54,822 bases of DNA from Gemmatimonadales bacterium (GCA_024278175.1 JAJRTS010000041.1:1-54822); one strand, 5' to 3'; counted from the first letter of the stretch, positions 4,024 to 21,056 are shown. Program-made: numbers and translations. The notes: a model not told the origin generated them from the letters alone.

Positions 4024-6723
4024 TCAGAATCCGTGCTTTTCAAACCCACCCTTATTGCGCACCATCCGCTGCATGTTGGGGTGGTGGATCGGGTCCTCCA
4101 TCTCCACTATGTGGCAGACAGTGCAGTTTTTCACGTTGGCCCCGATAGCGTACGGCTCACCCTGGTACTGCATGGGCTGGAGCACGTCGCGGAAAGTACC
4201 ATAGGGGTTCATTGTCGGAAAAATAGCGTGCGGAGACCCGTGGCAGGCAATGCAGTTGATCAGCGCGTTGTCCCTGGAATTGCGGTACAGTTCCTCGAAC
4301 GTTGCGTTGTAGTTGTTGAACGCGCGCGCTCCCGGCGCGGGCTGCTCAAAATCGACGTGGCAGGCAAAACAGTCCGGCTCATTGAGCCAGGGAGTGTTGC
4401 CGATGACGCTGTCTTTGGGCATGCTCCCGAGCTGAATATGCTCGGCCAGTTTTGCCGCGCGCGGCTTGTCCTTCTCGCCCTTAAGCAAGCCGAGCGCCCT
4501 CTCGTTCAGATTGCCGTGGCAGTTGCCGCAGGTCATCTTGCCCGGCTCGAAAGCGGTGCCATGCACGCCGCGAAGGCAGCGGGTAATCCCGCCCCTGGAG
4601 GCCGGATGGCAGTACAGGCAGGCCTCGTCCAGCACCTCGCCCATGTAATTTGCGTGCCAGCCGTGCATCGCCGCGCTGAAATTGAGCACGCCCTCGGTTC
4701 CCTCGGTTCCCAGTGCCGGGTCGGCGTGGCAGCTCTGGCACAGCCGGGGGTTTCCGTCCAGGGCCTGCTGGTAGAGCTGCGTGCCCTCGTTGCGGTCGTG
4801 GACCTTGAGGATGTTGATTGCCGTCTCGTCGGAGATACCGGCGTCCAGCTTACGCGGTCCGCCGCCGTGGCAGCGCCAGCAGTCGGCCTCGGCGCTCACC
4901 GGGGCGACAACTTTTGTCAGTGCCAGCAGCTCTCCGCTCGCGCTGTCACGCGCTTCGATATCCAGCACGGGGTAGGAGTCGAACTTACCGTCATCGCGGT
5001 AGGGCAGCAACGGGATGAATTTGGCCTCGTAGAGCTCCCGTTCATCATCGAACTTAAACGCGCCCCCGGCGGCCGCGTTGCCCGTCAGACCGACATTCCG
5101 CTCCAGCCGGGCGCCATAGAGCTTGTCGGCGAAATCCCAGAAGCGGGTATGGCTGGCCGGGTTGGCGTGCTGCGCTGGTGTTATGTAAGAGATTGTCACG
5201 CCGCCGGTGATCCGCTCCGGTAGCGGGCCGCGACGGATCAACTGGGCCTGCAGGGTGTTGGCCGGCGGCAGAAAGCTGAAAAACTCGTCGCAGTCACTGA
5301 TGCAGTGCATGCCCAGGTCGTTCCAGGCCAGCAGCACGTACTCGCTGGAGTCCGGGTCGAACGGCGGGATTTTTGCTGTTTCGGGCGAGGGTCCCCGCCC
5401 TGTGCCTCCTGCAAACGGAGAGCCCGGTGGGGGCGGTTCGCGGCCCAGGACGCCGTTCCAGATAAACGAGGCCAGCGCCAGTTTTTCCTCGCTGGTACCC
5501 ATGAACGGCGGCATATAGCCCCGGATTTTCCCCTGGCCGGAGATCTGCGCCAGCAGCCCCTGGAAACCGTAAGATTCCACCTTGGGGACGATGTCGTTCT
5601 GCAGCCCGCCGATGGTGTGGCAGGCCATGCATTGCAGGTTGAATACCTCGCGGCCCGCCTCGACACGGTTCTGGTCAGTGACGCTGTCAATCGCGCTCCA
5701 TCTGGCCAGCTTGAGCACACCCTCGGCGTTAATCTTCTCCGCGTCGGTTTTGAGGATGGAGTTCGAATACATGTGGCCGAACAGCACGTAGGGCTTGCGT
5801 GAGATTTCGCGGGTGTACTCGAATCCGCTCATCCAGACCAGGCCGATCGGCACCAGCAGCACAACGGCCAGCCGTTGTACGGTGAGCGATTTACTGGCGC
5901 TCATCAGGACGCCCAGCAGGAAAATCGCCACGGTGGCCGCTATCAGGTAATGGACCCACATGCCGGTGAGCTTGTTCATCTCGAACGCCACCGCGCGCAC
6001 ATCGGCCGGCACCGAGTAGAAATACCACGCCGCGGCCGGGATCAGGCCCAGCAACGGGTAGAGCAGCCACTTGGTGCAGTAGGACACCATCCGCTGGCGG
6101 AACGCGCTGTCCTCGAGAAACAGCGTGGTCACGTAACCGAACAGTCCGGCGAACGTGAAGGCGATAGAGCTGCGGAACATCAGCGACGGCCAGTAGGTGG
6201 GGTTGAAGAAACCGTCCCAGAAGTTGTGAGTTTCCAGCCAGTCGCCGGGGGTGAGCATGAAGCCGACAATGCCGTTGATCACGACCATGCTCAGCCAGGC
6301 GAACAGGAAATAGAGAAAACCGATCCGCAGGCGCGCCTTGCGGTCCATCGAGTCGTAGCGGTAATGGTAGAGCAGCAGGGCCACAATCTCGCCGAGAAAG
6401 AACACCCACTCTATCGCCCAGCCGAACACGAAATTGTGGATCAGCACGGTAGTGGCCGCCGGGCTGACCAGGGCGATAATGAACCAGATCCCCACGCCGG
6501 AAATACCGCCGAAGACCATGGTCAGCAGCAGGAAAAACCAGATGTGTTTTTTCAGGTAGGCGTGGATCGCCGGGCTGCTTTCGCGGAAGCCCTTGAGGTC
6601 TGTCAGCCAGAGGAACAGTCCTCCGCCCACGGCCATGTGCGAGATATAGACGTGGGGTACGGCGATAAGCGCTATCAGGCTGCCGCCGCCGACTGTAAGC
6701 AGTTCCCAGATCGGATAATTCAT
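4024..6723 (-). CDS. Cytochrome bd-type (CydA-like) membrane subunit fused to an eight-haem cytochrome c tail
   Basis: The ATG at 6723 overlaps the upstream stop as ATGA and has GGAAGG nearby, so I prefer it to the longer frame from 6756; it gives 899 residues. Residues 1 to about 315 form roughly eight membrane helices resembling CydA. They include a His near the N-terminus (PHVYISHMAVGGG), the WAIEWVFFLGE acidic helix (E104, E112) and EISRKPY, which matches the conserved E/R region of CydA. At the position of CydA His186 I read MFRSS, so the b558 site may be missing. Eight CxxCH motifs follow, at about 365, 615, 662, 702, 732, 785, 824 and 867. GYMPPFM probably supplies the Met ligand of the first haem. 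The tail would be periplasmic. It probably passes electrons between c-type haems and the membrane site (oxygen or another acceptor). The substrate is not evident. Confidence 0.85.
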   Translation of the reverse strand: MNYPIWELLTVGGGSLIALIAVPHVYISHMAVGGGLFLWLTDLKGFRESSPAIHAYLKKHIWFFLLLTMVFGGISGVGIWFIIALVSPAATTVLIHNFVFGWAIEWVFFLGEIVALLLYHYRYDSMDRKARLRIGFLYFLFAWLSMVVINGIVGFMLTPGDWLETHNFWDGFFNPTYWPSLMFRSSIAFTFAGLFGYVTTLFLEDSAFRQRMVSYCTKWLLYPLLGLIPAAAWYFYSVPADVRAVAFEMNKLTGMWVHYLIAATVAIFLLGVLMSASKSLTVQRLAVVLLVPIGLVWMSGFEYTREISRKPYVLFGHMYSNSILKTDAEKINAEGVLKLARWSAIDSVTDQNRVEAGREVFNLQCMACHTIGGLQNDIVPKVESYGFQGLLAQISGQGKIRGYMPPFMGTSEEKLALASFIWNGVLGREPPPPGSPFAGGTGRGPSPETAKIPPFDPDSSEYVLLAWNDLGMHCISDCDEFFSFLPPANTLQAQLIRRGPLPERITGGVTISYITPAQHANPASHTRFWDFADKLYGARLERNVGLTGNAAAGGAFKFDDERELYEAKFIPLLPYRDDGKFDSYPVLDIEARDSASGELLALTKVVAPVSAEADCWRCHGGGPRKLDAGISDETAINILKVHDRNEGTQLYQQALDGNPRLCQSCHADPALGTEGTEGVLNFSAAMHGWHANYMGEVLDEACLYCHPASRGGITRCLRGVHGTAFEPGKMTCGNCHGNLNERALGLLKGEKDKPRAAKLAEHIQLGSMPKDSVIGNTPWLNEPDCFACHVDFEQPAPGARAFNNYNATFEELYRNSRDNALINCIACHGSPHAIFPTMNPYGTFRDVLQPMQYQGEPYAIGANVKNCTVCHIVEMEDPIHHPNMQRMVRNKGGFEKHGF

Positions 6724-7799
6724 CGCGCCGCCGCCTTCCCGCCACCCATCGCCCACCGGAACATCAGGTACACCACCACCAGTCCGGCCACGAACGTAAT
6801 CAGGAACAACGAAAGCATATCGTACTGCGGCTTGAGCGCCACGTCCTCGATCCGGAAGTACGGCGCAAGGTAACCGCTACGCAGAAACGTGCGCATCATG
6901 ACCATTGCCACCACGGTCAGCACCAGCAGGACAACGGTGGGCCAGAGTCGCTTGAGAGAGGCGGTGACAATCACCGCCAGCGCCAGCACTATCGCGGCCA
7001 GCAGCGTAACCGTGTAGAGCATGTTCCGGCCCATGTAGAGCAGCATCACCTCGCGCGGCAGGGAGATCAGCAGCCAGAAACCGATTACGACCTGGATTAT
7101 CGTGGCCACCGCGAAAATTTTCAGTCCACTGTTGATTTTCTCCTGCGCCCCCTCGATGTCTTTCCGGCGGCGGAAGTCCCAGACAATAGCGCTGAACAGG
7201 CCAGCCACCGCGACACTGGCGGTGATAAAGTGCAGGTAGCGCGGCCACAATGCCGGGTCCGAGGTGTTGAGCAGCGTACCCGAGCGGTTGTCAAAGTAGC
7301 GCACCCACTGCGCGGGGTGGGTCATCAGACTGATATTATTCAGGATACAGAACGCCACGTAGAGCAGCAACAGCGAGGTCACTGCCAGCGACACCGTGGC
7401 GACTGCACTGTTTTTATTGAACTTGCGGGCTGTTACATAGGCGCCGTAGTAGGCGATCATCACCGCCGGGACAACCATGATCCAATATTTGGCCATCAGT
7501 ACCGAGCTGGTGTAGAAAAAATGGCCGTAGAGCACCTGGAAGAACAGCAGCGGCGCCACTCCGAACGTGACCGCGATTGCCAGCGTGCCGGGTATTTTTT
7601 TTGCTAGAACGTCCGGCAGGCCGGGGGGTGCGCTTTTCGCGCTCCCGGTCAAAGAGCTGAACAACAGGATCAGGCTGCCGCCCAGCACGACGTTGACCAG
7701 CAGCAGGTGGAGTGTCAGGGTCAGCATTCCCAGAAACTCTAGGATCCACCACGGCGCGGGCAGCACCTCGGCGGTGGGAATCAGCGTGGCAGGGTCCAT
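6720..7799 (-). CDS. Second bd-superfamily-like membrane subunit of the multihaem complex
   Basis: This predicted integral membrane protein of 359 residues has about eight or nine helices. Its early segment HLLLVNVVLGGSLIL parallels HVYISHMAVGGGLFL of the downstream partner, so the two look like paralogous halves of a bd-type complex. I chose the ATG at 7799 because GGAG lies seven bases upstream on the minus strand; the longer frame begins with TTG at 7817. The stop overlaps the next gene's start (ATGA), a sign of translational coupling and of equimolar subunits. No CxxCH occurs here. Function is inferred from the partner: membrane anchor or haem-b-bearing subunit of a terminal oxidase or reductase. 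Confidence 0.75.
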   Translation of the reverse strand: MDPATLIPTAEVLPAPWWILEFLGMLTLTLHLLLVNVVLGGSLILLFSSLTGSAKSAPPGLPDVLAKKIPGTLAIAVTFGVAPLLFFQVLYGHFFYTSSVLMAKYWIMVVPAVMIAYYGAYVTARKFNKNSAVATVSLAVTSLLLLYVAFCILNNISLMTHPAQWVRYFDNRSGTLLNTSDPALWPRYLHFITASVAVAGLFSAIVWDFRRRKDIEGAQEKINSGLKIFAVATIIQVVIGFWLLISLPREVMLLYMGRNMLYTVTLLAAIVLALAVIVTASLKRLWPTVVLLVLTVVAMVMMRTFLRSGYLAPYFRIEDVALKPQYDMLSLFLITFVAGLVVVYLMFRWAMGGGKAAAR

Positions 7800-7885
7800 C
7801 GCTTCGCTCCTTTGCAAGTACTTGAAAGGTATCTACCTGGAGTTTTGCAGGTCTTTCCGGCTGTCTGAATACTGTTCTTTAGTAG

Positions 7886-9669: not shown

Positions 9670-9925
9670 CGTGGTCCTCCGGAAACTGTTTGTCTTAACT
9701 GCTGAGGTCTCGATTTCTGCAGAGGGCGCTGAGAGTTTTTTGCGCCCCTTTATGGTTCTTCACAACTCTTTTCATCCCGCTTCATTTGGCGGGCCAACTG
9801 CTGTATATTAATACCCGGGCCCGCTGATCGCCAGAACCGGAGCAAATTATCAAGACCTCACGGGCCAACGGGTAGATCGTCCCCTCCGCGTGGGGATTGC
9901 ACAGCGGAAAGAAGAAAATGATCAG

Positions 9926-9930
9926 AGGAG
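9926..9930 (+). promoter_or_regulatory. Ribosome-binding site that decides the apbE start
   Basis: AGGAG stands seven bases before the in-frame GTG at 9938. The upstream GTG at 9890 has no such site, so translation most likely starts at 9938. Confidence 0.65.
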
Positions 9931-9937
9931 AAGGGGG

Positions 9938-10882
9938 GTGTTGAATGTTTTTGCAACGGCCCTCCCGGAGCTGAAAATGGAATACTACGAGGGCCGCGAA
10001 CACATCATGGGCACGGTCTTCCGGCTGCACGCCTTTCACGAGCCGGGACGCGGCCAGTGGATGCGCGAGCTGGCGGACCGGCTGTTCGACACGCTGCAGG
10101 AGGACGACCGGCGGCTGAGTATTTTCAAGAGCGGCAGCGTTGTCAACCGGATCAACGCCGCCGCCGGAGATGGCCCCGTGCCCGTGGACAAGGACACTTT
10201 CGAGCTGTTCGCGGCCGCGAAGAAGTGGTGGGAGTTCACCGGCGGGCTGTTCGATATCACTATCGGGGCGATGATGCGTGCGTTCGGCTATTACTCCAAT
10301 GCTCCCCTGCCACAGGCAGAACCGCCCACGGTAAAAAAACTGCCCGAACTTACAGGTTGTGATAAGATAAAACTGGATACGAAAAAGATGACGGTAAGTC
10401 TTACACGCCGGGGGATGACTGTTGACCTGGGCGGGTTCGCCAAGGGCTGGGTTGTGCAGCGGCGCAGCGATATCCTTCGCCGGGCCGGCCTTCACGATTT
10501 TGTGATCAGCGCGGGAACGAGCACGGTGATGGCTGCCGGTTCTCCACCCGAGCTGGACGGCTGGCCCACGGAGCTGGAGAGCTACGGCGCGGCGCAACTT
10601 AAGCTCGATTCGCTGGTACTCAAGGACGAATCAGTCAGCGTATCGGCCAATTACCGCAATACACGTAGCGGCCCCGGCGGGATCACGATCCGCCATATCA
10701 TGAACCCGCGCACGTTCGAACCGGTACGGCAGGTGCGCAGGGTGGTGGTGGTAGGCCCGGAGGCCAGTGATTGCGAGGCGCTCTCCACCGCCCTGCTGAT
10801 CCAGGGCGCGACCGAGGGCGTTTTCTCGCTGGCCACCCGTCCGGAAATCTCGGTCCATTTCGATTTCCCGGCTGGCGGGTAG
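9938..10882 (+). CDS. apbE: ApbE-like FAD:protein FMN transferase
   Basis: ApbE enzymes attach FMN from FAD to a threonine of target flavoproteins such as RnfG or NqrC. The 314-residue product shows the early MGTVFRLHAF segment, the flavin-site signature VDLGGFAKGWVVQ and the C-terminal HIMNPRTFEPV (family HIxDPxTG, with N in place of D). The usual glycine-rich GGN segment is replaced by SAGTSTVMAAG. No signal peptide or lipobox is visible, whereas many ApbE proteins are exported lipoproteins, so this one may act in the cytosol. GTG start. No target flavoprotein gene is in the window. Confidence 0.85.
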   Translation: MLNVFATALPELKMEYYEGREHIMGTVFRLHAFHEPGRGQWMRELADRLFDTLQEDDRRLSIFKSGSVVNRINAAAGDGPVPVDKDTFELFAAAKKWWEFTGGLFDITIGAMMRAFGYYSNAPLPQAEPPTVKKLPELTGCDKIKLDTKKMTVSLTRRGMTVDLGGFAKGWVVQRRSDILRRAGLHDFVISAGTSTVMAAGSPPELDGWPTELESYGAAQLKLDSLVLKDESVSVSANYRNTRSGPGGITIRHIMNPRTFEPVRQVRRVVVVGPEASDCEALSTALLIQGATEGVFSLATRPEISVHFDFPAGG

Positions 10883-10994: not shown

Positions 10995-11996
10995 TTGAGG
11001 ATCTTCCTTACCGGCGGCAACGGCTTTCTCGGCAGCAGAGTGGCGGACAGGCTGGCCCGCGCTGGTGGGCACGAGCTTGTACTGCTGGTCCGTCAGGGCC
11101 GCGAGGCCAACGTGCCCAGGCTGCCGGGCGTCAGCACTGTCAGCGGTGACATCACCGACCCGGCGTCCTACGAGAGTGCGCTGGAGCGCTGCGACGCCGT
11201 GATTCACACCGCCGCGCTGGTGTCCACCTGGATGCGGGACCGCTCGCTGTTCGACAGGGTTAACGTGCGCGGCACACTGGAGCTGATCGAAAAAGCCGCC
11301 GCCCGTGGCGTTGGTAAAATCCTCTACGTCTCCTCTTTCCTCGCCCTGCCGCCCTCGCCCGCTGGCGCTGTGCTCGATGAATCCACGCCCGCCCAGCGCT
11401 CCACCCACTACAACGATTACGAGCGCACCAAATACACGGCCAACCTTCGGGTGGCGGAGCTTGTAGCCGAGGGCGCGCCGGTGGTGACCCTGTATCCTAC
11501 CGTTATGTACGGCCCCGGCCCGCTGACCGCCGGCAATCTGCTGGTGGGGATGCTGATCGACCACATGCGCGCCCGGCTGCCCGCGCGGCTGGGTGATGGC
11601 ACTCAGAGCTGGAATTTCGTGTTTGTCGATGATGTGGCGTGGGGTGTGGACCAGACTTTGCATAAAGCGGAACCGGGTGAGAGAATAATTCTCGGTGGGG
11701 AGAACGTGACCATGAGCGCTTTTTTCGACATCATGGGCCAGCTAACCGGCAAAGCACCGCCGCGGCTGGCGCTACCCTGGCCGGTGGCCCGTCTTGCAGG
11801 GGCGGCGGAGGAACTGCTGGCTCTGCTGACCGGACGCACGCCCCTAACCACCCGGGGGGTGATCGACATCTTCCGGCTCAACTGGGTGTTCAGCTCCGCC
11901 AGGGCCGCCACCCGGCTGGGTTATGCTCCCCGGACTCTTCGCCAGGGGCTGGAGCAGACCGTGGAATGGATCAGAAGCGAGGGGCTGGCCGGATGA
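10995..11996 (+). CDS. NAD(P)-dependent SDR resembling plant farnesol dehydrogenase
   Basis: This is an extended short-chain dehydrogenase of 333 residues. It has a Rossmann motif TGGNGFLGS (6-14), SS at 113-114, and Y142-x3-K146 as the catalytic pair. From memory, its C-terminal half (LYPTVMYGPGPLT, FVDDVAWG, GENVTMSAFFDIM) reads much like plant farnesol dehydrogenase, and more loosely like the hopanoid-associated epimerase HpnA family. It starts at TTG, four bases after TGGAGG (10985-10990). Its stop overlaps the next gene's ATG, a putative prenol kinase, which supports a prenyl-alcohol substrate. Oxidation of farnesol or geranylgeraniol to the aldehyde is my inference. An epimerase or reductase role is the alternative. 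Confidence 0.75.
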   Translation: MRIFLTGGNGFLGSRVADRLARAGGHELVLLVRQGREANVPRLPGVSTVSGDITDPASYESALERCDAVIHTAALVSTWMRDRSLFDRVNVRGTLELIEKAAARGVGKILYVSSFLALPPSPAGAVLDESTPAQRSTHYNDYERTKYTANLRVAELVAEGAPVVTLYPTVMYGPGPLTAGNLLVGMLIDHMRARLPARLGDGTQSWNFVFVDDVAWGVDQTLHKAEPGERIILGGENVTMSAFFDIMGQLTGKAPPRLALPWPVARLAGAAEELLALLTGRTPLTTRGVIDIFRLNWVFSSARAATRLGYAPRTLRQGLEQTVEWIRSEGLAG

Positions 11997-12577
11997 CAGG
12001 TGAAACAAAGCGCCAGATCGAGCATATCCTTCCGCTTGGATTCGCGTTCCTGCTGCCGTATCTTTCTCTGGCGCAGGCGGTGTTCGCCTGTCTGGCGGCC
12101 GCCGGTTACGGCCTGTTCGTTTCGGCCAGGATCAACTCTCAGGGAATGCGCGACAACGAGAAAAAGCGTGGCTGGAGCGTGGGCAAGCTCTGTTACGCGA
12201 TTGTTGTGCTGGCGCTGGTGCTGTTGTTTCGGCAGCGGATTCATATTGCCTGCGGCGGCTGGGCCGTGCTGGCGCTGGGAGACTCGATCAGCAATATCGC
12301 GGGCAGGGCCTGGGGCAGCGCTAAAATTCCCTGGTCCGTCAGTCGTACCTGGGTGGGCAGCGGGTTTTACGTGCTGGCCTCGTGGGTCGGCTCGGTGAGT
12401 CTGGTTTGCTGGGCGGTAGCCGTTACCGGCTACGGGTTGCCGCCGTTTGCCGTTGTTGTGGGTGCCTGCCTGGCGGCGTCGATTGTGGCGGCGCTAGTGG
12501 AAACCCTGCCCCTGCCGCTGGATGACAACCTGACCAGCCCGCTGGCCGCCGCCGGGGTGCTGGCGATTTTTTTGTAA
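11993..12577 (+). CDS. Prenol (phytol/farnesol/dolichol) kinase-like membrane protein
   Basis: This 194-residue polytopic membrane protein belongs to the SEC59/VTE5 CTP-dependent kinase group. The diagnostic LGDSISNIAGRAWG is at 95-108, followed by KIPWSVSRTWVGS, which corresponds to the family's K-PW-S-K-S-W-GS segment. Family members phosphorylate lipid alcohols with CTP at the membrane. The ATG at 11993 overlaps the preceding TGA (ATGA), and I prefer it to an upstream in-frame ATG at 11966 inside the SDR gene. Next to a prenol dehydrogenase and a DUF92 kinase it probably converts a free isoprenol to its monophosphate. CDP-archaeol synthase-like activity is an alternative in this fold family. 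Confidence 0.8.
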   Translation: MTGETKRQIEHILPLGFAFLLPYLSLAQAVFACLAAAGYGLFVSARINSQGMRDNEKKRGWSVGKLCYAIVVLALVLLFRQRIHIACGGWAVLALGDSISNIAGRAWGSAKIPWSVSRTWVGSGFYVLASWVGSVSLVCWAVAVTGYGLPPFAVVVGACLAASIVAALVETLPLPLDDNLTSPLAAAGVLAIFL

Positions 12578-12608
12578 ATGCGAAGCCATGCGGGGGGACC
12601 GGATAAAA

Positions 12609-12655
12609 AATCCCCTCTAACAAGAGGGGTGCCCGTCGTAGGCGGGTGGGGTGTG
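12609..12655. repeat. GC-rich palindromic intergenic element
   Basis: CCCCTC (12612-12617) pairs with GAGGGG (12624-12629). A second weak CCCG/CGGG stem follows. It lies between the two kinase genes and could be a dispersed repeat or attenuate transcription between them. It has no T-run, so a terminator is unlikely. Confidence 0.5.
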
Positions 12656-12712
12656 TAATCAGTTTTTCGCCACGATGAATCAATTTTTCAGCACTGGACG
12701 CTGAGGAAAACC

Positions 12713-13447
12713 ATGAACGCTTTTCTGACACCCTGGCCCCTGGCCGAGGCCGTGGGGGTCACCCTCTCCTTTGGGATTGCCGCCCGGGCGCTGGGCGCTG
12801 TCAGCGGCAGCGGACTGGTGGGCGGAATCGTGGTCGGCAGCGCGATCTACCGCTTCTCCGGCTGGCCGGGGTTCGTGGTGCTGGGCGTGTTTTTCGTGCT
12901 CTCAAGCGCCCTGACCCGTTTCGGTTACAGCCGCAAGCACGAGCTCGGTGCGGCCCAGGCCAAAAAAGGCCGGAGGGGAGCGCGTCACGCGGCGGCCAAT
13001 TGCGCCGCCGGAGTGCTGCTGGCCGCCGGTTACAACCTGAACGGCGGCGGCGACCCGCTGTGGGCCGCGGGGCTGGTGGCCTCGTTTGCCACGGCGGCGG
13101 CGGACACCGCCGGCAGCGAGACCGGCCCGGTGCTGGGACGCACCGCCGTGCTGGCCGCCTCGCTAAAGCGCGTAGCTCCCGGCACACCCGGCGCTGTCTC
13201 GGTCGAGGGAACCCTGGCCGGAGTGGCGGCGGCCTCGGTGGTGGCCCTTGCCGGTTACGTGTCCGGTTTACTCGACTCGGCGGCTCTGATCGCTCCGGTG
13301 GTGGCAGCGGCGACAGCCGCCGCGGCGGTCGAGAGCGTACTCGGCGGTTTCCCCGCCGTCCGGCGGACACTGGGCCACGATGGCATGAACCTGCTTAATA
13401 CGGTTATGGGAGCGCTACTGTGCATGGCGATGGTGTGGATAACCTAA
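12713..13447 (+). CDS. DUF92/TMEM19-family protein, prenyl (phytyl) phosphate kinase-like
   Basis: This 244-residue membrane protein has about six helices. Diagnostic segments are FATAAADTAGSETG (D131, E136) and VAPGTPGAVSVEGTLAG (154-170), both typical of DUF92. In plants and cyanobacteria the family member VTE6 turns phytyl phosphate into phytyl diphosphate. The gene follows the VTE5-like kinase after 135 bases and overlaps the UbiA gene. Two successive kinases followed by a prenyltransferase is the order of reactions in tocopherol-type salvage. The prenyl chain cannot be told from sequence; without photosynthesis genes nearby, geranylgeraniol or farnesol is as likely as phytol. Confidence 0.85.
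   Translation: MNAFLTPWPLAEAVGVTLSFGIAARALGAVSGSGLVGGIVVGSAIYRFSGWPGFVVLGVFFVLSSALTRFGYSRKHELGAAQAKKGRRGARHAAANCAAGVLLAAGYNLNGGGDPLWAAGLVASFATAAADTAGSETGPVLGRTAVLAASLKRVAPGTPGAVSVEGTLAGVAAASVVALAGYVSGLLDSAALIAPVVAAATAAAAVESVLGGFPAVRRTLGHDGMNLLNTVMGALLCMAMVWIT
13409..13412 (+). promoter_or_regulatory. Ribosome-binding site inside the DUF92 gene, sets the UbiA start
   Basis: GGAG lies seven bases before the GTG at 13420, within the last codons of the DUF92 gene. It supports a 28-base overlap of the two reading frames and hence coupled translation. Confidence 0.6.
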
Positions 13448-14451
13448 GCAAAAGCGCAACGGACACCCCGGCAAAAAAATCCGTGACCGGGATGATCGGC
13501 AAATACTGCAAGTTCACCCGGCCGTTCACCCTGCTCCCCCCCCTGCTGGGGATTGTCAGCGGGGCGGTAACGGCGCTGGGGGCGAGCGCCTGGCACGGGA
13601 AGCTGGGATTTTTCGAGTTTTTTACAGTGCCTGGGAACTGGATCTATCTATACTATTTGGCACTGGGCGCGGCGATGGCCGCTGTGCTAAACGCCGCCTC
13701 CAACGTGCTGAACCAGATCACCGATTTAGAGAACGACCGGATCAACAAGCCGGAGCGGATGCTGCCCTCGGGCCGGGTGAGCGTGACGGCCGCGGCGGTG
13801 TTCGCGGCCGTGCTTTACGCAGTCGCGCTGGGTCTGGCCTGGCTGGTCTCGCCCGGCGGCAGTCACGAGTGTTTCTGGCTGGCCCTGGCCGCCGCGGTGT
13901 TTACCTACCTGTACTCCGGCATGCCGTTTCGCACCAAGCGTCACTGGTTCGGGGCCAACCTTACGATTGCCATCCCGCGCGGATGGCTGCTCAAGGTGGC
14001 GGGCTGGAGCTGTATCGCCCCGATCGCCACCGATGTCGAGCCGTGGTATATCGGTTCTGTGTTTTTTCTGTTCCTGCTGGGAGCCGCCAGCACCAAGGAT
14101 TTCAGCGACATGGAGGGCGACCGCGCGGCGGGTTGTATCACCATGCCGGTGCGTTTCGGGGTACGGCGTAGCGCATGGATGATCGCCCCCTCGTTCGTGC
14201 TGCCCTGGCTGCTGCTGCCGCTGGGAACAGTGCTGAACAAGCCCGGCGCGGCGGAGCCGGTGCTGACCGGCAACCCGGTGCTGCTGGTACTGCTGGGAGT
14301 GTTTCTGGCCGCTTACGGGGCCTACACCGCCTGGACGATTCTTCGCGACCCGGACAGCCTGGCGGCCAGCGAGAACCACCCCTCGTGGACCCATATGTAC
14401 CTGTTGATGATGGCTGCGCAGGTGGGATTTGCGCTGGCCTATATTTTCTAG
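13420..14451 (+). CDS. UbiA-family prenyltransferase
   Basis: This intramembrane prenyltransferase is 343 residues long with about eight or nine helices. The first aspartate-rich motif is N98-QITD-LEND106, followed by RINKPERMLPSG. The second is K226-DFSDMEGD234. Both bind Mg-diphosphate of the prenyl donor. The NKPxRxLPSG continuation resembles homogentisate phytyltransferase and related enzymes, but the same form occurs in menaquinone and ether-lipid members. The acceptor is therefore unknown. Start is GTG, with ATG at residue 25 as an alternative. Overlap with the DUF92 gene and the nearby prenyl diphosphate synthase make it the likely consumer of the prenyl diphosphate made in this cluster. 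Confidence 0.9.
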   Translation: MHGDGVDNLSKSATDTPAKKSVTGMIGKYCKFTRPFTLLPPLLGIVSGAVTALGASAWHGKLGFFEFFTVPGNWIYLYYLALGAAMAAVLNAASNVLNQITDLENDRINKPERMLPSGRVSVTAAAVFAAVLYAVALGLAWLVSPGGSHECFWLALAAAVFTYLYSGMPFRTKRHWFGANLTIAIPRGWLLKVAGWSCIAPIATDVEPWYIGSVFFLFLLGAASTKDFSDMEGDRAAGCITMPVRFGVRRSAWMIAPSFVLPWLLLPLGTVLNKPGAAEPVLTGNPVLLVLLGVFLAAYGAYTAWTILRDPDSLAASENHPSWTHMYLLMMAAQVGFALAYIF

Positions 14452-14452
14452 A

Positions 14453-14583
14453 GAGGGCCGTTGAAAAAACATTCAACGATCCTGACATCAAATCTATTAC
14501 TTTTCTTAGCTGTCAAGGACCTGTAAATCAGCCTCCGGCTGACCCTTGACAGCTGAATTCCCACGATGACCGTTATTTTTAAC
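14453..14583. repeat. Complete copy of a dispersed palindromic element
   Basis: It starts with a short hairpin (CGTTGAA/TTCAACG). It then carries an 11-base inverted repeat AGCTGTCAAGG (14508-14518) / CCTTGACAGCT (about 14543-14553), with an inner TCAGCC/GGCTGA stem. The rest aligns with the split copy at 7886-8213. It follows the UbiA stop by two bases, so it probably also affects the 3' end of that transcript. It is too short to encode a transposase and looks like a REP or MITE-type element. Confidence 0.7.
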
Positions 14584-14642
14584 ACGCTGTCGGCCCCCAA
14601 GGGGCGCGGTAAGGCGGGGCTGAGCTAAATGGAGCGATGCCG

Positions 14643-16802
14643 ATGATTGGCGACAGCAGGGCCGGGATGGCTTCCGGTACCGGCAAAATATCCAGGCGGC
14701 GGTTTTTACAGGCCGCCACCGCCGCGGCGCTCACCGCAGCAGTGTCCTGCACGGACGCGCCCGCGGTGGCGGAGCGTTCGCTCAGGCGCAAAGTGATTAT
14801 CCTGGGCTACGACGCCGTGGACCCGGTGCTGCTTCGCCGCTGGATGGCCGGGGGGCAGCTTCCCAATATCTCGCGCCTGGCCCGCGACGGGGCTTTCAGC
14901 GAGCTGGGCAGCTCCATTCCTCCCGAATCGCCGGTGGCCTGGTCCACTTTCAGCGTGTCGGCGCAGGCGGGTGTGCATGGTATCTACGATTTTCTGGGTC
15001 GCGACACGGACACCTACGCCCCCAGAATCGCCGCGGTGGAGCCGGAATACCCCGAGTTTCTCTGGGACATGATTCCCTTGGGCAGGCCCGGCGCAAGATG
15101 CCTTCGCGGCGGCAAACCGTTCTGGGTGGTCGCGGCCGAGGACGGAATTAAAACCGCGGTGCTCGAAGCGCCGGTGGCGTTTCCGGCCACTCCCCTGGCG
15201 GCCGGCGGCCTGCTGCTCACCGGGCTGACCACTCCCGACCTGCGCGGGACCCAGGGCACCTATCAATTTTTCACCACCGATATTTACAGCGAGCCGATGG
15301 AGGAAACCGAGTTCGGCGGCAAGATCAGCCCAATCGAGTTTGACTCCGATGGCCGTGCGCGCGCACAGATAATCGGCCCGTGGAACCCGATCACCCGCCA
15401 AAAACGAAACCGCCTGCTGGCGCGCCGCACCGCTCTGGAACGTTCCGGGGGTGTCGGGGCGGAACTGGTGGTGCTTGATACCGAGTTGGCCGCGCTGGAG
15501 GCCCGCAACTACCTGAGCGTACCGGTAACTTTTACCCTGGCCCCGAGCGGGACGAAGCTCGAGGTTGAACTCCAGGGGCATAGCGCAATCCTGGACCAGG
15601 GCCAGTGGAGCGACTGGATAGAGGTGGCGTTCAGCCTCAATTTCCTGATCAAGGTGCGCGGGATAACCCGGTTCCTGCCGGTTGAGCTTGGCGGCGAAGT
15701 GCGGGTCTACATGAGTCCGATCGAAATCCACCCGGAACACCCCGTGCTGCCGATCAGCTACCCGGATGATTTCGCCGCCAGGCTGGCCCGCAACACGGGG
15801 CTGTTCAAAACCCGCGGCTGGGCCGCCGAGACCTCGGCGCTCAAGGAACGCAGGATCGGCGAGGCGGCGTTTATCGAGGACCTGGACCGGATGATCGACC
15901 AGCGCGAGGCGATGTGCATCGAGGTGCTCGACAACGACAAACCCAACCTGTTTTTTGAGGTATTTTCCTGCACGGACAGGGTGCAGCACATGTTCTGGCG
16001 CCTGGAGGACAAGGGCCATCCGCTCTACGACCCCAAGCTCGATAAGCGGTTCGGCGATGCGATCCTTCACGTCTACAAGCGGATGGACCGGTTTGTGGGC
16101 CTGGTGCGCGAGCGCTACGAGGATGAGGATACGTTGCTGATGGTCTGCAGCGACCACGGGTTCTCCTCGTTCCGCAAGGGCGTGAATATCAACACCTGGC
16201 TGGTGGACAGCGGGTACATGCGCCTCAAGGGCCAGGATAATCCGCGTTACAACCTCAAGGACCTGTTCGGCGGTGGTGACTTTTTCGTCAACGTGGACTG
16301 GCGCGGTACGCGGGCCTACTCGCTGGGCCTAGGGTTGATTTTTATCAACCTGGCCGGGCGCGAGAGCCGGGGGATCGTTCAGCCGGGAGAGGAGTATGAC
16401 AACCTTGTGGCAGAGATCGGCAATAAGCTGCTGGAGCTTCGCGACCCGGACGACGAGAGCCGGGTTGTCTCGGCCGTTTATCCCGGCAGGAAAGTATACA
16501 GCGGCAGCCGGATCGGCGAGGCCCCGGATCTTGTGGTGGGTTTCAGCCGCAACTACCGCGTGAGCTGGCAGACCGCCCTGGGCGGAGTGCCGGCCGGGGT
16601 GCTGGAGCCGAACATGGAAAAATGGAGCGGGGATCATTGCTCGGTGGACCGTGAGTTGGTGCCGGGCGTGCTGCTGGCCAACCGCACTTTTTCACTCCCT
16701 CGTCCGGACCTTCGCGACCTAGCCCCCACGGCCCTTCGCTACCTGGGTTGTCCCGTGCCCGACCAGTACGAGGGCCGTGACTTGTTCGGCGCAGAAGTTT
16801 AG
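14643..16802 (+). CDS. Tat-exported alkaline-phosphatase-superfamily phosphodiesterase
   Basis: This is a type I phosphodiesterase/nucleotide pyrophosphatase-like protein of about 719 residues. I take the ATG at 14643, eight bases after GGAG (14631-14634); an in-frame ATG at 14637 is too close to it. The N-terminus has a twin-arginine motif (SRRRFLQAAT) and a possible lipobox AAVSC (Cys 36), suggesting a Tat-exported lipoprotein. The metal sites look complete: D in ILGYDAVD, a nucleophile Ser/Thr in PVAWSTFS, CTDRVQHMFW, CSDHGFSSF and GDHCSVD. The substrate is unknown. Position between a prenyltransferase and a prenyl diphosphate synthase suggests a phosphorylated lipid or its headgroup, but this is inference. 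Confidence 0.85.
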   Translation: MIGDSRAGMASGTGKISRRRFLQAATAAALTAAVSCTDAPAVAERSLRRKVIILGYDAVDPVLLRRWMAGGQLPNISRLARDGAFSELGSSIPPESPVAWSTFSVSAQAGVHGIYDFLGRDTDTYAPRIAAVEPEYPEFLWDMIPLGRPGARCLRGGKPFWVVAAEDGIKTAVLEAPVAFPATPLAAGGLLLTGLTTPDLRGTQGTYQFFTTDIYSEPMEETEFGGKISPIEFDSDGRARAQIIGPWNPITRQKRNRLLARRTALERSGGVGAELVVLDTELAALEARNYLSVPVTFTLAPSGTKLEVELQGHSAILDQGQWSDWIEVAFSLNFLIKVRGITRFLPVELGGEVRVYMSPIEIHPEHPVLPISYPDDFAARLARNTGLFKTRGWAAETSALKERRIGEAAFIEDLDRMIDQREAMCIEVLDNDKPNLFFEVFSCTDRVQHMFWRLEDKGHPLYDPKLDKRFGDAILHVYKRMDRFVGLVRERYEDEDTLLMVCSDHGFSSFRKGVNINTWLVDSGYMRLKGQDNPRYNLKDLFGGGDFFVNVDWRGTRAYSLGLGLIFINLAGRESRGIVQPGEEYDNLVAEIGNKLLELRDPDDESRVVSAVYPGRKVYSGSRIGEAPDLVVGFSRNYRVSWQTALGGVPAGVLEPNMEKWSGDHCSVDRELVPGVLLANRTFSLPRPDLRDLAPTALRYLGCPVPDQYEGRDLFGAEV

Positions 16803-16885
16803 CTTAAATTACCCCCTTGTATCGCTTAGCCGCCCAGGGCGGTGCCTGCCGGAAAGTCCCTCCCCAACCGGAGCTAGATTAAGAT

Positions 16886-17767
16886 ATGAACGGTTTACCG
16901 GAAAAGTTCGCCGAACTGGCGGAAAAAGTGGAGGGCGTGCTGGAGGATTTTCTGCCGGCGAGAGAAGCGATGGCCGCTGAAGTAGTCGAGGCCATGCGCT
17001 ACAGCCTGACCGGCGGCGGCAAACGAATCCGGCCGGTGCTGACAATGCTCTCAGCCGAGCTGGCGGGCCGCAGCGCCGCCGACGTGCTGAAAGCGGCCGC
17101 GGCAATAGAGATGATTCACACCTGCTCGCTGATTCTCGACGACCTGCCGTGTATGGACAACGCCACCGTGCGCCGCGGCAAGCCCGCGCTGCATATCCAT
17201 GTGGGCGAGGCCACCGCCGTACTGGCGGCCTACGCTTTGCTGGCGCGGGCGTTCGAATTGCTGGCCGGGGAGATAGCCGACCACGAACTGTCCCCAGTGG
17301 CGGCTTCCGCCGTTGTCCGTGACGCAGCCTGCTGCGTGGGCGTGAGCGGTATGACCGGCGGCCAGTGGCGGGACCTTAATCCCATCGAAAAAAAATTCGA
17401 AACGCTGGAGTATATCCACAGCCATAAAACAGGCAGCCTGTTTATCCTCTCGTCCACCCTGGGCGCGCGGCTGGCCGGGGCGGAAAGCAGCATTGTGGAT
17501 TGCCTGGCCAGTTTCGCCAAGAACCTGGGGCTGGCGTTTCAGATAGTCGACGACGTGCTGGGCAGCGAGATGCCTGCCCGGCAACTGGGGAAGGATGGTG
17601 CCGACGGGCCGGGCAAGGTGACCTTTGTCAGCACGATCGGGGTGGAAAGCTCGCGGGCGGTGGCCGGGGACCTGGTGCGTACCGCCAAACTGTCGCTGAA
17701 GCCGTTCGGCGCCCGCGCCGCCGAACTGTGTTCGCTGGCCGATTACGTAATCAACCGCAGCAGATGA
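16886..17767 (+). CDS. Short-chain polyprenyl diphosphate synthase (FPP/GGPP type)
   Basis: This 293-residue all-alpha enzyme makes farnesyl or geranylgeranyl diphosphate from isopentenyl diphosphate. The GGGKRIRP segment (43-50) and the first aspartate-rich motif DDLPCMD (85-91) are of the bacterial IspA type with the two-residue insertion. The second motif reads FQIVDDVLGSE (D222, D223, then VLG), where the family normally has DDxxD. The last Asp is a Gly, so catalytic competence or product specificity may differ. The gene lies eight bases before the next CDS and shares strand and spacing with the prenol-kinase and UbiA genes, whose donor it could supply. Confidence 0.88.
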   Translation: MNGLPEKFAELAEKVEGVLEDFLPAREAMAAEVVEAMRYSLTGGGKRIRPVLTMLSAELAGRSAADVLKAAAAIEMIHTCSLILDDLPCMDNATVRRGKPALHIHVGEATAVLAAYALLARAFELLAGEIADHELSPVAASAVVRDAACCVGVSGMTGGQWRDLNPIEKKFETLEYIHSHKTGSLFILSSTLGARLAGAESSIVDCLASFAKNLGLAFQIVDDVLGSEMPARQLGKDGADGPGKVTFVSTIGVESSRAVAGDLVRTAKLSLKPFGARAAELCSLADYVINRSR

Positions 17768-17774
17768 GAGAGCG

Positions 17775-19763
17775 ATGACCGAGCGCGAGCAAAGAGATGC
17801 AAGTGATGAGAACTTGAGCCTGGACGAGGTGCGCTCCCGTCTCAGGACCCTGGGCTATCTGGAAAGCCCGGTGGAGCGTTATCTGGCTGTCAGCCGCCGG
17901 GGGGGGCGCCTGGGCGCTCTGGCGGTGGCCGCGCAGTATGCACTGTTGATCGGCCTGCTGCTGGCCGGCCTGACAACAGTGAGCAACCTGATGGCCGATC
18001 CGGGGTTTATCGCCAACACGGCCGACATGCTGCTGATGATGCTCTATCTGGGAGGCGCTTATTCGCTGGTGCTGCTGGTGCTGCTGCTGGTTCCGGCGCT
18101 GGTGTGGTCGGGGAGGAAAAAACCGGCGCTGGGAAGGATCAGGCTCGGCAGTCCCACCAGGGCGGTGATCATGAGTACCGTCGTTACGGCCTTGCTGTGC
18201 ACGTACCTGCTGGGCTGGTGGCAGGCTGTGATTCGTTCCAGTCAGGCCCTGGTGCCGTTCGGGCTGATTTCAGTGGCCGTGATGGCGACGATCGGCATGG
18301 TGTCGCTGATGGCGGGACGGCTGCTGGGGTTTGTCTATCTGCTGCTCTCCGGGGTGACACGGCAGCGCGTTCGCCGTGGGGGGCGGCATCTGGCGCGCTC
18401 CTACGCTTTCGCGCTGGGAGTGGTGGTGCTGCTCGAGGCTGCCTGGGCCATCGGGGTATTCCGCCATCACAGCGCGGACCATACGCTGGCCGAGGCGCTC
18501 GATATTTACGAGCCGCCGCCGTTGCCCGTGCTGGTACTCGGTCTGGACGGGATGAATCGCGCGAGTGTTGAGAGTCTGGTCGCGGCTGACAGCCTGCCGA
18601 ATTTGTCACGGATGATGGCCCGGGGGTTCACCGCTCCGCTCCAGTCGCGGGGCGAGTATCTGGCGCCGCAGGTCTGGACCACTGTCGCCACCGGAGTCAA
18701 GCCGGAGGTACACGGGATCGAGGGGTTCACCAGGCCCGTGCCCTGGGGTATGAGCCGCACACCCCGTCTTGCTCCGGACAAGCCGGGACTCAAAGCGCTT
18801 TTCGAGCATATTCTGCCGTTCGCGGGCATGATTCGCAGCGTGCCTGTCAGCGCGGCCTCCCGGATGACCCGTACCCTGTGGGAAATCAACGAGTTGTTCG
18901 GCGCAAGCGCGGGTGTGGTCAACTGGTGGGCCACCTGGCCGGCCGAGGTCTCGAACGGTTTTACGATCAGCGAGCGCACGTATCCCAAGATCTCATATAT
19001 CCATCGCCAGCAGGCGCTCAACCCGGCCAACTATTTTCAGCGCGAGGTTTTCCCGGCCGCCGAGTTCGATTCCCTGGTGGGTCTTCGCCAGCGCCTGTTG
19101 GGGTCGTTCGATACCATGCTGGAGGATTTTCCGGCTCTGGCGGCGATGGCCGCCCGGGGCGACAGCGACGAAGTGGCGGAGATGGTGCGTTCGGTGTGTT
19201 TCGCCGACTATTTTTATTGCATGGCGGCGATAGACGCGGACCTTCGCAGGCCGGTGAAATTCATGGCGGTCTATTTCCAGGGGGCCGACGTGCTGGACCG
19301 TCTGGAGGAGCGGGTCGACAACGTACGCAAGGATGAGATTCAACCGCTGATCCGCGAGTATTATCGTTATTGCGACCGCCTGCTGGGGTATCTGATCGAC
19401 AGGTATCATCCGGGGGGCTTGCTGACGGTGGTCTGCGAGCCGGGGAAAAAAGCCCGTCTGGCCGGGGAGCAGGGGCTGGTGCTGTTCCACGGTCTGGATG
19501 TGCGCGCCGGGGCGAGTACCAGGGAGCCGATGATGCTCGAGGACGTGGCGCCTACGGTGCTCTACCTCAGCGGTTTGCCGGTTTCGAGCAACATGAGCGG
19601 ACGGGCGCTTCGTGATGCCGGCGAGGGCGGTCCGGGAGGGGCGAGGCCGCTGCGTTATGTCACTTCGTTCGGGCCGCCGCCCCAGCGACTGGACACCTCG
19701 AGCCGCTACAGCCACGACCGCGAGATGATCCAGCGCCTGCGTTCCCTGGGCTATATAAACTGA
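17775..19763 (+). CDS. Membrane-anchored alkaline-phosphatase-superfamily protein, metal site incomplete
   Basis: This 662-residue protein has several predicted helices in residues 45-230 and a phosphodiesterase-like domain from about 250. The first metal Asp (LGLDGM, D258) and the nucleophile Thr (APQVWTTVATG, T302/303) are present. The place of the family's SDHG is occupied by VVCEPGKKARLAG, and the DxxxH segment reads GADVLDRLEE. The second metal site is therefore missing. It may be a non-catalytic binding protein or a transferase of altered mechanism. It also carries the family's LR-LGY motifs at both ends (RLRTLGYLE, RLRSLGYIN). It lies downstream of the prenyl diphosphate synthase and is probably co-transcribed with it. 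Confidence 0.75.
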   Translation: MTEREQRDASDENLSLDEVRSRLRTLGYLESPVERYLAVSRRGGRLGALAVAAQYALLIGLLLAGLTTVSNLMADPGFIANTADMLLMMLYLGGAYSLVLLVLLLVPALVWSGRKKPALGRIRLGSPTRAVIMSTVVTALLCTYLLGWWQAVIRSSQALVPFGLISVAVMATIGMVSLMAGRLLGFVYLLLSGVTRQRVRRGGRHLARSYAFALGVVVLLEAAWAIGVFRHHSADHTLAEALDIYEPPPLPVLVLGLDGMNRASVESLVAADSLPNLSRMMARGFTAPLQSRGEYLAPQVWTTVATGVKPEVHGIEGFTRPVPWGMSRTPRLAPDKPGLKALFEHILPFAGMIRSVPVSAASRMTRTLWEINELFGASAGVVNWWATWPAEVSNGFTISERTYPKISYIHRQQALNPANYFQREVFPAAEFDSLVGLRQRLLGSFDTMLEDFPALAAMAARGDSDEVAEMVRSVCFADYFYCMAAIDADLRRPVKFMAVYFQGADVLDRLEERVDNVRKDEIQPLIREYYRYCDRLLGYLIDRYHPGGLLTVVCEPGKKARLAGEQGLVLFHGLDVRAGASTREPMMLEDVAPTVLYLSGLPVSSNMSGRALRDAGEGGPGGARPLRYVTSFGPPPQRLDTSSRYSHDREMIQRLRSLGYIN

Positions 19764-19856: not shown

Positions 19857-21056
19857 ATGATCGATGATGTAAGCAGAAATCCCGCCTTGCTCAAGCTCGA
19901 TCTTTATTGCCGGGGAATCAGGCTCGGCGGGGGTTGCCGGGTAACCCAGGACGGCGGCCGGGAGATCATGCGCACCCGCGCCGGTCTGGGCAGCGGGCTG
20001 GAGGTGATCCTGCCGGGAGGGTTGTACACTAATATCCCGGTCACGGAAAGCTTTGCCGCCGACAGCCCCTACGAGCTTATCCGCGATAGCGGCGGCGGTT
20101 ACGTGATCCACCTTGACGGGCGCGCGGTGGCCCCCGTGCGGCTGGCTCCCCGGCCCGAATGGTACGGACAACGGACCGCCACGGGTAAGAAAATGAGCAT
20201 GGTGGGCAGCCTGCAGGGCACGTATCTGGCCATTTACCCGGCCAGGGTCTGCGATTACTGGCTGGAGAAACCAGCTAAAACGAACTGTAAGTTCTGCTCG
20301 GTTGGGCTTAACCTGGGATGTGACGACGCCGATGAGAAATCCGTGGCCGACGTGCTGGAAACGGTGGGCGCGGCTGTGCGGGAAAACCGGATTACTTATG
20401 TGGATTTCAATACCGGGCACTACGCCGGCGATACCTACCTCGATCTTCTGGAGCCGTTTATCCGGGCGGTCAAGCGGGAGTACGGGTTGATGATCGGTGT
20501 GCAGACCCCGCCGCATCACGACCTGTCCCGCTACAAGGAGCTCAGGAAGATGGGGGTCAACCGGGTCAGTTTCTGTTTCGAGATCTGGGACCGCGCCCGC
20601 TTCGCCGAAATCTGTCCGGGCAAGAATCGCGAGTACGGGCTGGACCGTTACCTGGAGGCGATTGAGTACTGTTCCCGGATATTCAACACCACCAACGGGG
20701 AGATCGTAGCGGGGCTGGAGCCGCCGGAGAAATCGATCGAGGCGATCGACTGGATAACCTCGGTGGGCGCGGTGCCCACTGTCTGCGTGTTCAGGCCGCT
20801 GATCGGCACGGACTACGAGCATCTGCCGCCGCCCAATGCCGGGGAGCTGGTGCCGGTGCTGCGCCGGATGTACGAGGCCTGCATGGAGCGCGGCCTGATG
20901 ATCGGGGTGGCCCCGAACGTGAAAGTGTCGCTGGTGCTGCTGCCAGAGGAAGGCCGTTATTTTACAGACAATCCGAGCAGGTTTTTCCTGACAAGGGCCA
21001 GGCACGCCCTGCTGCGGCCGGTGTTCGCGGCGGCGCTGAAGGCGCGGCTGGTCTGA
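19857..21056 (+). CDS. Radical SAM protein with a widened cysteine motif
   Basis: This 399-residue protein has an N-terminal domain of about 125 residues (LLKLDLYCRGIRL) before the cluster motif. The cysteines are C132-x11-C144-x2-C147 (in DYWLEKPAKTNCKFCSVG), not the canonical CxxxCxxC. The TIM-barrel part has a likely SAM-binding region and PGKNREYGLDRYLEA. From memory it is closest to the MSMEG_0568-type radical SAM family, which also has a long Cys spacing and the leading domain. The reaction is unknown. It follows the isoprenoid cluster after 93 bases of AT-rich DNA that may hold its own promoter. No strong ribosome-binding site is seen. Confidence 0.75.
   Translation: MIDDVSRNPALLKLDLYCRGIRLGGGCRVTQDGGREIMRTRAGLGSGLEVILPGGLYTNIPVTESFAADSPYELIRDSGGGYVIHLDGRAVAPVRLAPRPEWYGQRTATGKKMSMVGSLQGTYLAIYPARVCDYWLEKPAKTNCKFCSVGLNLGCDDADEKSVADVLETVGAAVRENRITYVDFNTGHYAGDTYLDLLEPFIRAVKREYGLMIGVQTPPHHDLSRYKELRKMGVNRVSFCFEIWDRARFAEICPGKNREYGLDRYLEAIEYCSRIFNTTNGEIVAGLEPPEKSIEAIDWITSVGAVPTVCVFRPLIGTDYEHLPPPNAGELVPVLRRMYEACMERGLMIGVAPNVKVSLVLLPEEGRYFTDNPSRFFLTRARHALLRPVFAAALKARLV

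Follow-up and report, generated by a model that had tools for sequence, protein, structure and literature searches.

The window examined here is the whole 54,822-nt stretch of JAJRTS010000041.1 (GCA_024278175.1); the draft genome in which it is contig 28 spans 4.18 Mb and is of the Candidatus Glassbacteria type. Its plus strand carries a series of genes for ApbE, an SDR, a CTP-kinase-like protein, a DUF92 protein, a UbiA prenyltransferase, an AlkP-family enzyme (AlkP1), a prenyl diphosphate synthase, a second AlkP homolog (AlkP2), and a radical SAM protein. An earlier note on this DNA had described five of these genes as a prenol-salvage and prenyl-transfer cluster accompanied by an AlkP enzyme, its degenerate paralog, and a radical SAM gene, and all of them are present in the positions and order that it gave. 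The families it named for the SDR, DUF92, UbiA, prenyl synthase (polyprenyl_synt), and AlkP proteins were recovered in Pfam; the kinase had no credible match in HMM searches of Pfam or NCBIfam.

Of three overlapping joints proposed earlier, one is firm. At the SDR/kinase joint, stop and start codons overlap in a genuine ATGA, and the kinase gene accordingly begins at 11993. Between DUF92 and UbiA, an overlap hangs on an uncertain GTG at 13420, a possible UbiA start inside DUF92; start sites in relatives lie farther 3′. The kinase and DUF92 genes are separated by 135 bp containing a hairpin (CCCCTC-TAACAA-GAGGGG, positions 12612 to 12629, unstranded, found in the sequence and by pattern scans), and the prenyl synthase and AlkP2 genes are separated by 7 bp.

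The series is flanked by genes conserved within the family. ApbE, an FAD:protein FMN transferase encoded 5′ of the cassette (9890 to 10882, plus strand; PF02424, 176 bits), figures in Glassbacteria as a conserved neighbor only. The radical SAM gene (19857 to 21056, plus strand), of the variant_rSAM type (NF045502, 222 bits, above cut-off), is kept in three relatives (G001, G003, and G004) and is a family-wide neighbor only. On the minus strand (4024 to 7817), a 910-aa cytochrome c-domain protein, MtrC/MtrF-like with c7 and cbb3-type Pfam matches, adjoins a membrane protein and is likewise kept beside the cluster within the family.

Enzymes encoded by the cassette

The gene at 11993 to 12577 (plus strand) encodes a VTE5/SEC59-type CTP kinase that we regard as a candidate isoprenol kinase on the basis of its motifs, a distant-homolog profile, and its predicted fold. 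An alignment of 18 conserved homologs contains R-[K/Q]-x-x-H, GD, E, and DDN motifs, with R16, H20, GD106, E179, and D186-D187-N188 invariant (numbered from 11966). Against a distant-homolog set, the protein gave a full-length profile match of 99.8% (hhalign), and one distant homolog shows a weak match to PF01148 (CTP_transf_1; E = 0.001) that falls short of the cut-off. The full-length match and the R-x-x-x-H, GD, and E...DN motifs indicate homology to CTP-dependent polyprenol kinases (VTE5/SEC59, COG0170), a class assignment drawn from motifs and distant homologs rather than from reference VTE5 or SEC59 sequences. A sequence search for solved structures of the kinase returned none. The top PDB fold match of its AlphaFold model (pLDDT 88.5) is CdsA, with a probability of 0.95 but an E value of 0.17, and the predicted CdsA-like fold is supportive only. 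The R-[K/Q]-x-x-H motif resembles the R-K-x-x-H clamp modeled for PfPolK (PMC10849223).

The adjacent DUF92/COG1836 protein (12713 to 13447, plus strand) belongs to the VTE6-type family (PF01940, E = 1e-39, 136 bits; curated cut-off 27.5) and is a candidate prenyl-phosphate kinase. VTE6 is At1g78620, a member of COG1836/pfam01940/DUF92 (PMC3223725, PMC5898192), and geranylgeraniol and geranylgeranyl phosphate are further substrates of VTE5 and VTE6 (PMC13415981). For TIGR00297, a fused relative passes the cut-off (206.1 versus 205.85), while the window copy, at 141 bits, does not. The predicted model has a pLDDT of 95; among solved structures, the sequence search returned a chance-level match and the fold search no convincing one.

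In 69 of 199 Acidobacteriota genomes, the two kinases are halves of a single uninterrupted ORF of ∼445 aa (e.g., L053:8624-9970), in many cases beside a UbiA of the window's subfamily. The fusion of two kinases supports successive phosphorylation, first of an alcohol and then of its phosphate. The fusion itself is not new, since SEC59-like/DUF92 fusions with a predicted isoprenoid kinase role have been reported in archaea (Methanosarcina; PMC5898192). A 543-aa fused kinase-DUF92 protein also occurs in another family of the window's phylum (L112:2372-3835, G450), with UbiA absent within 8 kb. In G001, which is of the same genus as the window genome, DUF92 is divided over two frames (L024:9296-10013 and 11029-11118), reflecting assembly error or decay. 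A search for plasmid homologs found none for UbiA and one partial DUF92 match for the fused kinase.

The first gene of the cassette (10995 to 11996, plus strand, TTG start) encodes an extended, HpnA-like SDR, a candidate prenol/prenal or sugar oxidoreductase. It matches the NAD-dependent epimerase/3β-HSD families in Pfam (Epimerase/3Beta_HSD, E = 2e-34) and contains the motifs GGNGFLG and YxxxK. Its proposed identity as a farnesol dehydrogenase (FLDH) found no support; the closest named family is HpnA (TIGR03466), and there the score of 214 bits falls below the cut-off of 367.65. The SDR adjoins the kinase in Glassbacteria, Vicinamibacteria, and divergent Acidobacteriota.

AlkP1 (14637 to 16802, plus strand) is a predicted PF01663 phosphodiesterase/phosphatase with a Tat signal, assigned by Pfam, NCBIfam, and alignment. 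Its metal-ligand Asp/His residues and nucleophile are invariant in six orthologs, which places it in the AlkP superfamily; a sequence search found no solved structure. AlkP2 (17775 to 19763, plus strand) is a membrane-anchored, degenerate homolog (PF01663, 46 bits) in which the DH metal motifs are missing from a four-ortholog alignment.

Between the two AlkP genes lies a short-chain prenyl diphosphate synthase (16886 to 17767, plus strand; PF00348, E = 1e-46), identified by NCBIfam (FPP synthase, 257 bits; cut-off 275), PDB matches to FPPS/GGPPS, and alignment. The first aspartate-rich motif, DDLPCMD, is intact; the second reads DDVLG, with its third D lost, where relatives have DDILD or DDILE. 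The gene is absent from the cluster of the close relative G001, and outside Glassbacteria none was seen with the other cassette genes. The earlier suggestion of a second, de novo source of diphosphate is weakened by this confinement to Glassbacteria and by DDVLG in place of DDxxD; the synthase is a local addition in Glassbacteria, of uncertain activity.

A distinct UbiA subfamily in apparently non-phototrophic hosts

The prenyltransferase (13420 to 14451, plus strand, the GTG start at 13420 being uncertain) is a UbiA-superfamily member by its match to PF01040 (E = 2e-35) and two Asp-rich motifs. Its conserved motifs are NQxxDxxxD, KDxxDxxGD, and a C-terminal ENH-SW-MY signature. In a phylogenetic tree with several long reference branches, three fragmentary references, and a long-branch archaeal sequence within the clade, the subfamily formed one clade (support 99/100) apart from ChlG, DGGGPS, DPPRS, MenA, UbiA, and CyoE. 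A Thermoplasmatota UbiA (L063:4865-5821; 29% identity), which has the motif NAASNVLNQ in common, lies on a long branch inside this clade.

The best PDB profile matches are DGGGPS (6m31, 94 bits) and the chlorophyll synthase ChlG (9sau, 85 bits). The best NCBIfam scores were to generic prenyltransferase, ChlG, BchG, and DGGGPS models, every one below cut-off. The prenyl donors of DGGGPS and ChlG are C20 diphosphates, a point in favor of the activation and transfer pathway proposed below. The placement agrees with the earlier view that this is not a quinone-type enzyme: scores to MenA, UbiA, and MqnP models are 20 to 33 bits, and the protein falls outside those branches of the tree. Three other identities were rejected: DGGGP synthase (76 bits versus a cut-off of 296; separate clade; GGGP synthase [PcrB] not found in the window genome), ChlG/BchG (96 versus 313 bits; BchH absent from the genome), and homogentisate phytyltransferase (HPT; 67 versus 226 bits).

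Other UbiA homologs in the window genome resemble MqnP/UbiA, DPPR synthase (286 bits, above cut-off), and an IspH-UbiA fusion, so those roles are probably filled. The last of these is a 578-aa ORF on the minus strand of another contig (G000:C50, L004:1417-3153), comprising IspH (LytB) and a UbiA-like C-terminal domain.

The host had been described as apparently non-photosynthetic, and the BchH search agrees. BchH is absent from five Glassbacteria genomes, including the window's, and no genome among the 73 screened had a match above cut-off, which argues against hidden phototrophy. One Acidobacteriota carrier (G099) had a BchH match of 791 bits versus the cut-off of 829 and may be phototrophic. 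Canonical geranylgeranyl reductase was above cut-off in 19 of 73 carriers and in no Glassbacteria; since members of its superfamily match everywhere, this gene is uninformative about a reduced, phytyl-like chain.

Conservation and co-occurrence across phyla

Four other genomes of the Glassbacteria family retain the gene order up to their contig ends. In G001, UbiA is followed directly by AlkP2, and AlkP1 is missing along with the prenyl synthase. When the UbiA alignment was used to search 84,980 species genomes, matches came from Acidobacteriota, Krumholzibacteriota, Eisenbacteria, and Latescibacterota. The SDR-kinase-DUF92-UbiA order of Glassbacteria recurs in Acidobacteriota, the order in Krumholzibacteriota is UbiA-x-SDR-DUF92, and AlkP1 adjoins UbiA in Eisenbacteria and Latescibacterota. 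Relatives of the cassette occur in at least two phyla beyond the window's own, and the co-occurrence on which the earlier reading depended is found both in family genomes and elsewhere. Because the gene order is retained across family genomes and partly in other phyla, it is not due to chance.

Among the 199 Acidobacteriota genomes, 61 encode a UbiA of the subfamily (E of at most 1e-20). All 61 also have the fused kinase, and UbiA is present in 61 of the 69 genomes with the fusion (Fisher P = 7e-43, uncorrected for phylogeny). The two genes lie within 1.5 kb of each other in 41 cases and on separate contigs in 17; the latter pairs indicate that the co-occurrence is more than hitchhiking. Immediately upstream of the kinase in several Acidobacteriota loci (L053, L049, L054, and L056) is LptD, in several cases with dTDP-rhamnose RmlA/B/D-like genes as well.

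AlkP1 had been read as riding along with the cluster; gene order and co-occurrence indicate instead that it is probably a pathway member. Divergent genomes retain AlkP, SDR, fused kinase, and UbiA in that order (G097 and G123), direct evidence that AlkP and the SDR belong to the set, and two others (G081 and G237) have AlkP, SDR, and fused kinase together. AlkP1 homologs (E of at most 1e-60) were found in 60/61 UbiA-positive and 53/138 UbiA-negative Acidobacteriota. Strong homologs (360 bits or more) occur in 50/61 and 4/138, respectively, an association that is suggestive because the threshold was picked post hoc, with the scores in view. Weaker AlkP1 homologs stand in tandem, as pairs, in many UbiA-negative Acidobacteriota (e.g., G095:C45 and G108:C18).

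Proposed pathway and its relation to known systems

We postulate that the cassette's enzymes activate an isoprenoid alcohol in two CTP-driven steps and so feed a dedicated UbiA prenyltransferase. This is the best-supported reading, and we put its probability at about 0.6. The VTE5-like kinase would phosphorylate the alcohol, whether C15-C20 or of long chain and whether taken up or recycled, and the VTE6-like DUF92 protein would add a second phosphate, yielding a prenyl diphosphate that in Glassbacteria the adjacent synthase could perhaps also supply directly. UbiA would transfer the prenyl group from the diphosphate to an acceptor, Tat-exported AlkP1 would strip a phosphate or phosphodiester from an exported product or intermediate, and the SDR may turn an alcohol group of the prenol or headgroup into a carbonyl, or the reverse. 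We infer a membrane location for the pathway as a whole, as we do the substrate of each enzyme and the points at which AlkP1 and the SDR act. The salvage and prenyl-transfer idea of the earlier note is partly supported, by the co-occurrence, the UbiA clade, the apparently non-phototrophic hosts, and the fusion, and is weakened as regards FLDH, the synthase as a second source, and AlkP1 as a passenger.

Several observations count against this reading. The kinase superfamily also includes dolichol and diacylglycerol kinases; the SDR is absent from several Acidobacteriota loci; Krumholzibacteriota and Eisenbacteria genomes with the subfamily UbiA have no close kinase, encoding distant homologs or none; and no acceptor-making genes are consistently linked to the cassette.

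An unlikely explanation, yet the strongest of the competitors, is carrier-lipid recycling, in which dolichol-kinase-like enzymes rephosphorylate a long-chain polyprenol and an envelope sugar linked to polyprenyl is assembled or trimmed by UbiA, AlkP1, and the SDR. It stays alive because envelope genes adjoin the loci in Acidobacteriota (LptD and, in several, dTDP-rhamnose genes) and Krumholzibacteriota (a sugar transferase, GT9, and Wza/Wzz-type export genes). The SDR's resemblance to sugar epimerases and HpnA fits as well, as does the linkage of the archaeal DUF92 family, including the SEC59-like/DUF92 fusions, to uppS (PMC5898192). However, the genome's separate DPPR-synthase-type UbiA, noted above, is the one that scores above cut-off for that role, whereas the cassette UbiA matches C20-donor enzymes, and the Glassbacteria cluster lacks a glycosyltransferase but does include a synthase of the short-chain type.

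A scheme in which phytol or geranylgeraniol released into the environment by chlorophyll decay is salvaged to make a vitamin-E- or quinone-like prenylated aromatic would follow the enzyme logic of plant VTE5-VTE6-HPT, and UbiA members score 67 to 98 bits on the homogentisate phytyltransferase model. We consider it improbable, given that those scores lie well under the cut-off of 226, that no tocopherol-pathway gene was recognized among the scanned cluster neighbors, and that so few carriers have a canonical geranylgeranyl reductase. A bacterial ether lipid of the archaeal type, with UbiA acting as a DGGGP synthase homolog on prenylglyceryl phosphate and AlkP1 dephosphorylating, is very improbable: the capacity for such lipids exists in some FCB bacteria (PMC7852524) and 6m31 is the top PDB profile match, but PcrB is missing, the DGGGPS model scores well under its cut-off, and UbiA falls outside the DGGGPS-containing clade.

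Activation followed by transfer most resembles phytol recycling by VTE5-VTE6-HPT in plants and cyanobacteria (tocopherol, phylloquinone), which likewise combines a VTE5/SEC59-type CTP kinase, a DUF92/COG1836 kinase, and a UbiA-superfamily acceptor enzyme. The cassette differs in its non-phototrophic hosts, its clustered and partly fused genes, its additional AlkP and SDR, and a UbiA that neither HMM nor tree places with homogentisate or DHNA enzymes. Archaeal SEC59-DUF92 fusions (e.g., Mbar_A3310; PMC5898192) have the same two-domain order and a predicted role in isoprenoid phosphorylation, but they are linked to uppS, whereas the cassette's partners are a distinct UbiA, the SDR, and AlkP, and Glassbacteria keep the two kinases as separate genes. 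The ebo operon pairs a UbiA protein (EboC) with a PF01663 phosphodiesterase (EboF), as the cassette does (PMC5133447), and the ebo genes listed in the abstract of that paper include no prenol kinases; no EboB/D/E-type gene was recognized near the cassette, and the EboC model scores 42 to 54 bits versus a cut-off of 250. PfPolK of Plasmodium is a VTE5-family CTP-dependent kinase with an R-K-x-x-H clamp in a non-photosynthetic organism; it is eukaryotic, it yielded only a monophosphate when assayed, and no fused or adjacent DUF92 partner is described in the parts of PMC10849223 consulted.

A review (PMC9782597) described the route as two independent enzymes on record for plants and cyanobacteria only. 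The later PfPolK paper, of 2024, presents its kinase as the first of this type from outside photosynthetic organisms (PMC10849223). The route has so far been proven only in plants, cyanobacteria, and, in part, malaria parasites. The earlier note knew of no description of the combination; the Sec59-like/DUF92 fusion does have its precedent in PMC5898192, while a search of CC-licensed papers found no description of a bacterial kinase-DUF92 linkage with UbiA, SDR, and AlkP.

More tentatively, we speculate that several non-phototrophic phyla possess a dedicated prenyl-lipid cycle, a possibility that we rate as unlikely. The product of UbiA would be a prenylated envelope compound of a new class, which AlkP1 and the SDR would process or degrade either in the membrane or beyond it, and the prenol set free would be reactivated by the often-fused two-step CTP kinase, so that the cells would recycle their own isoprenoid as opposed to taking up phytol. 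The cassette offers a concrete bacterial candidate for isoprenoid-alcohol activation, encoded in Acidobacteriota as a single ORF that can be directly expressed and assayed, and it points to an uncharacterized prenylated product in abundant soil phyla.
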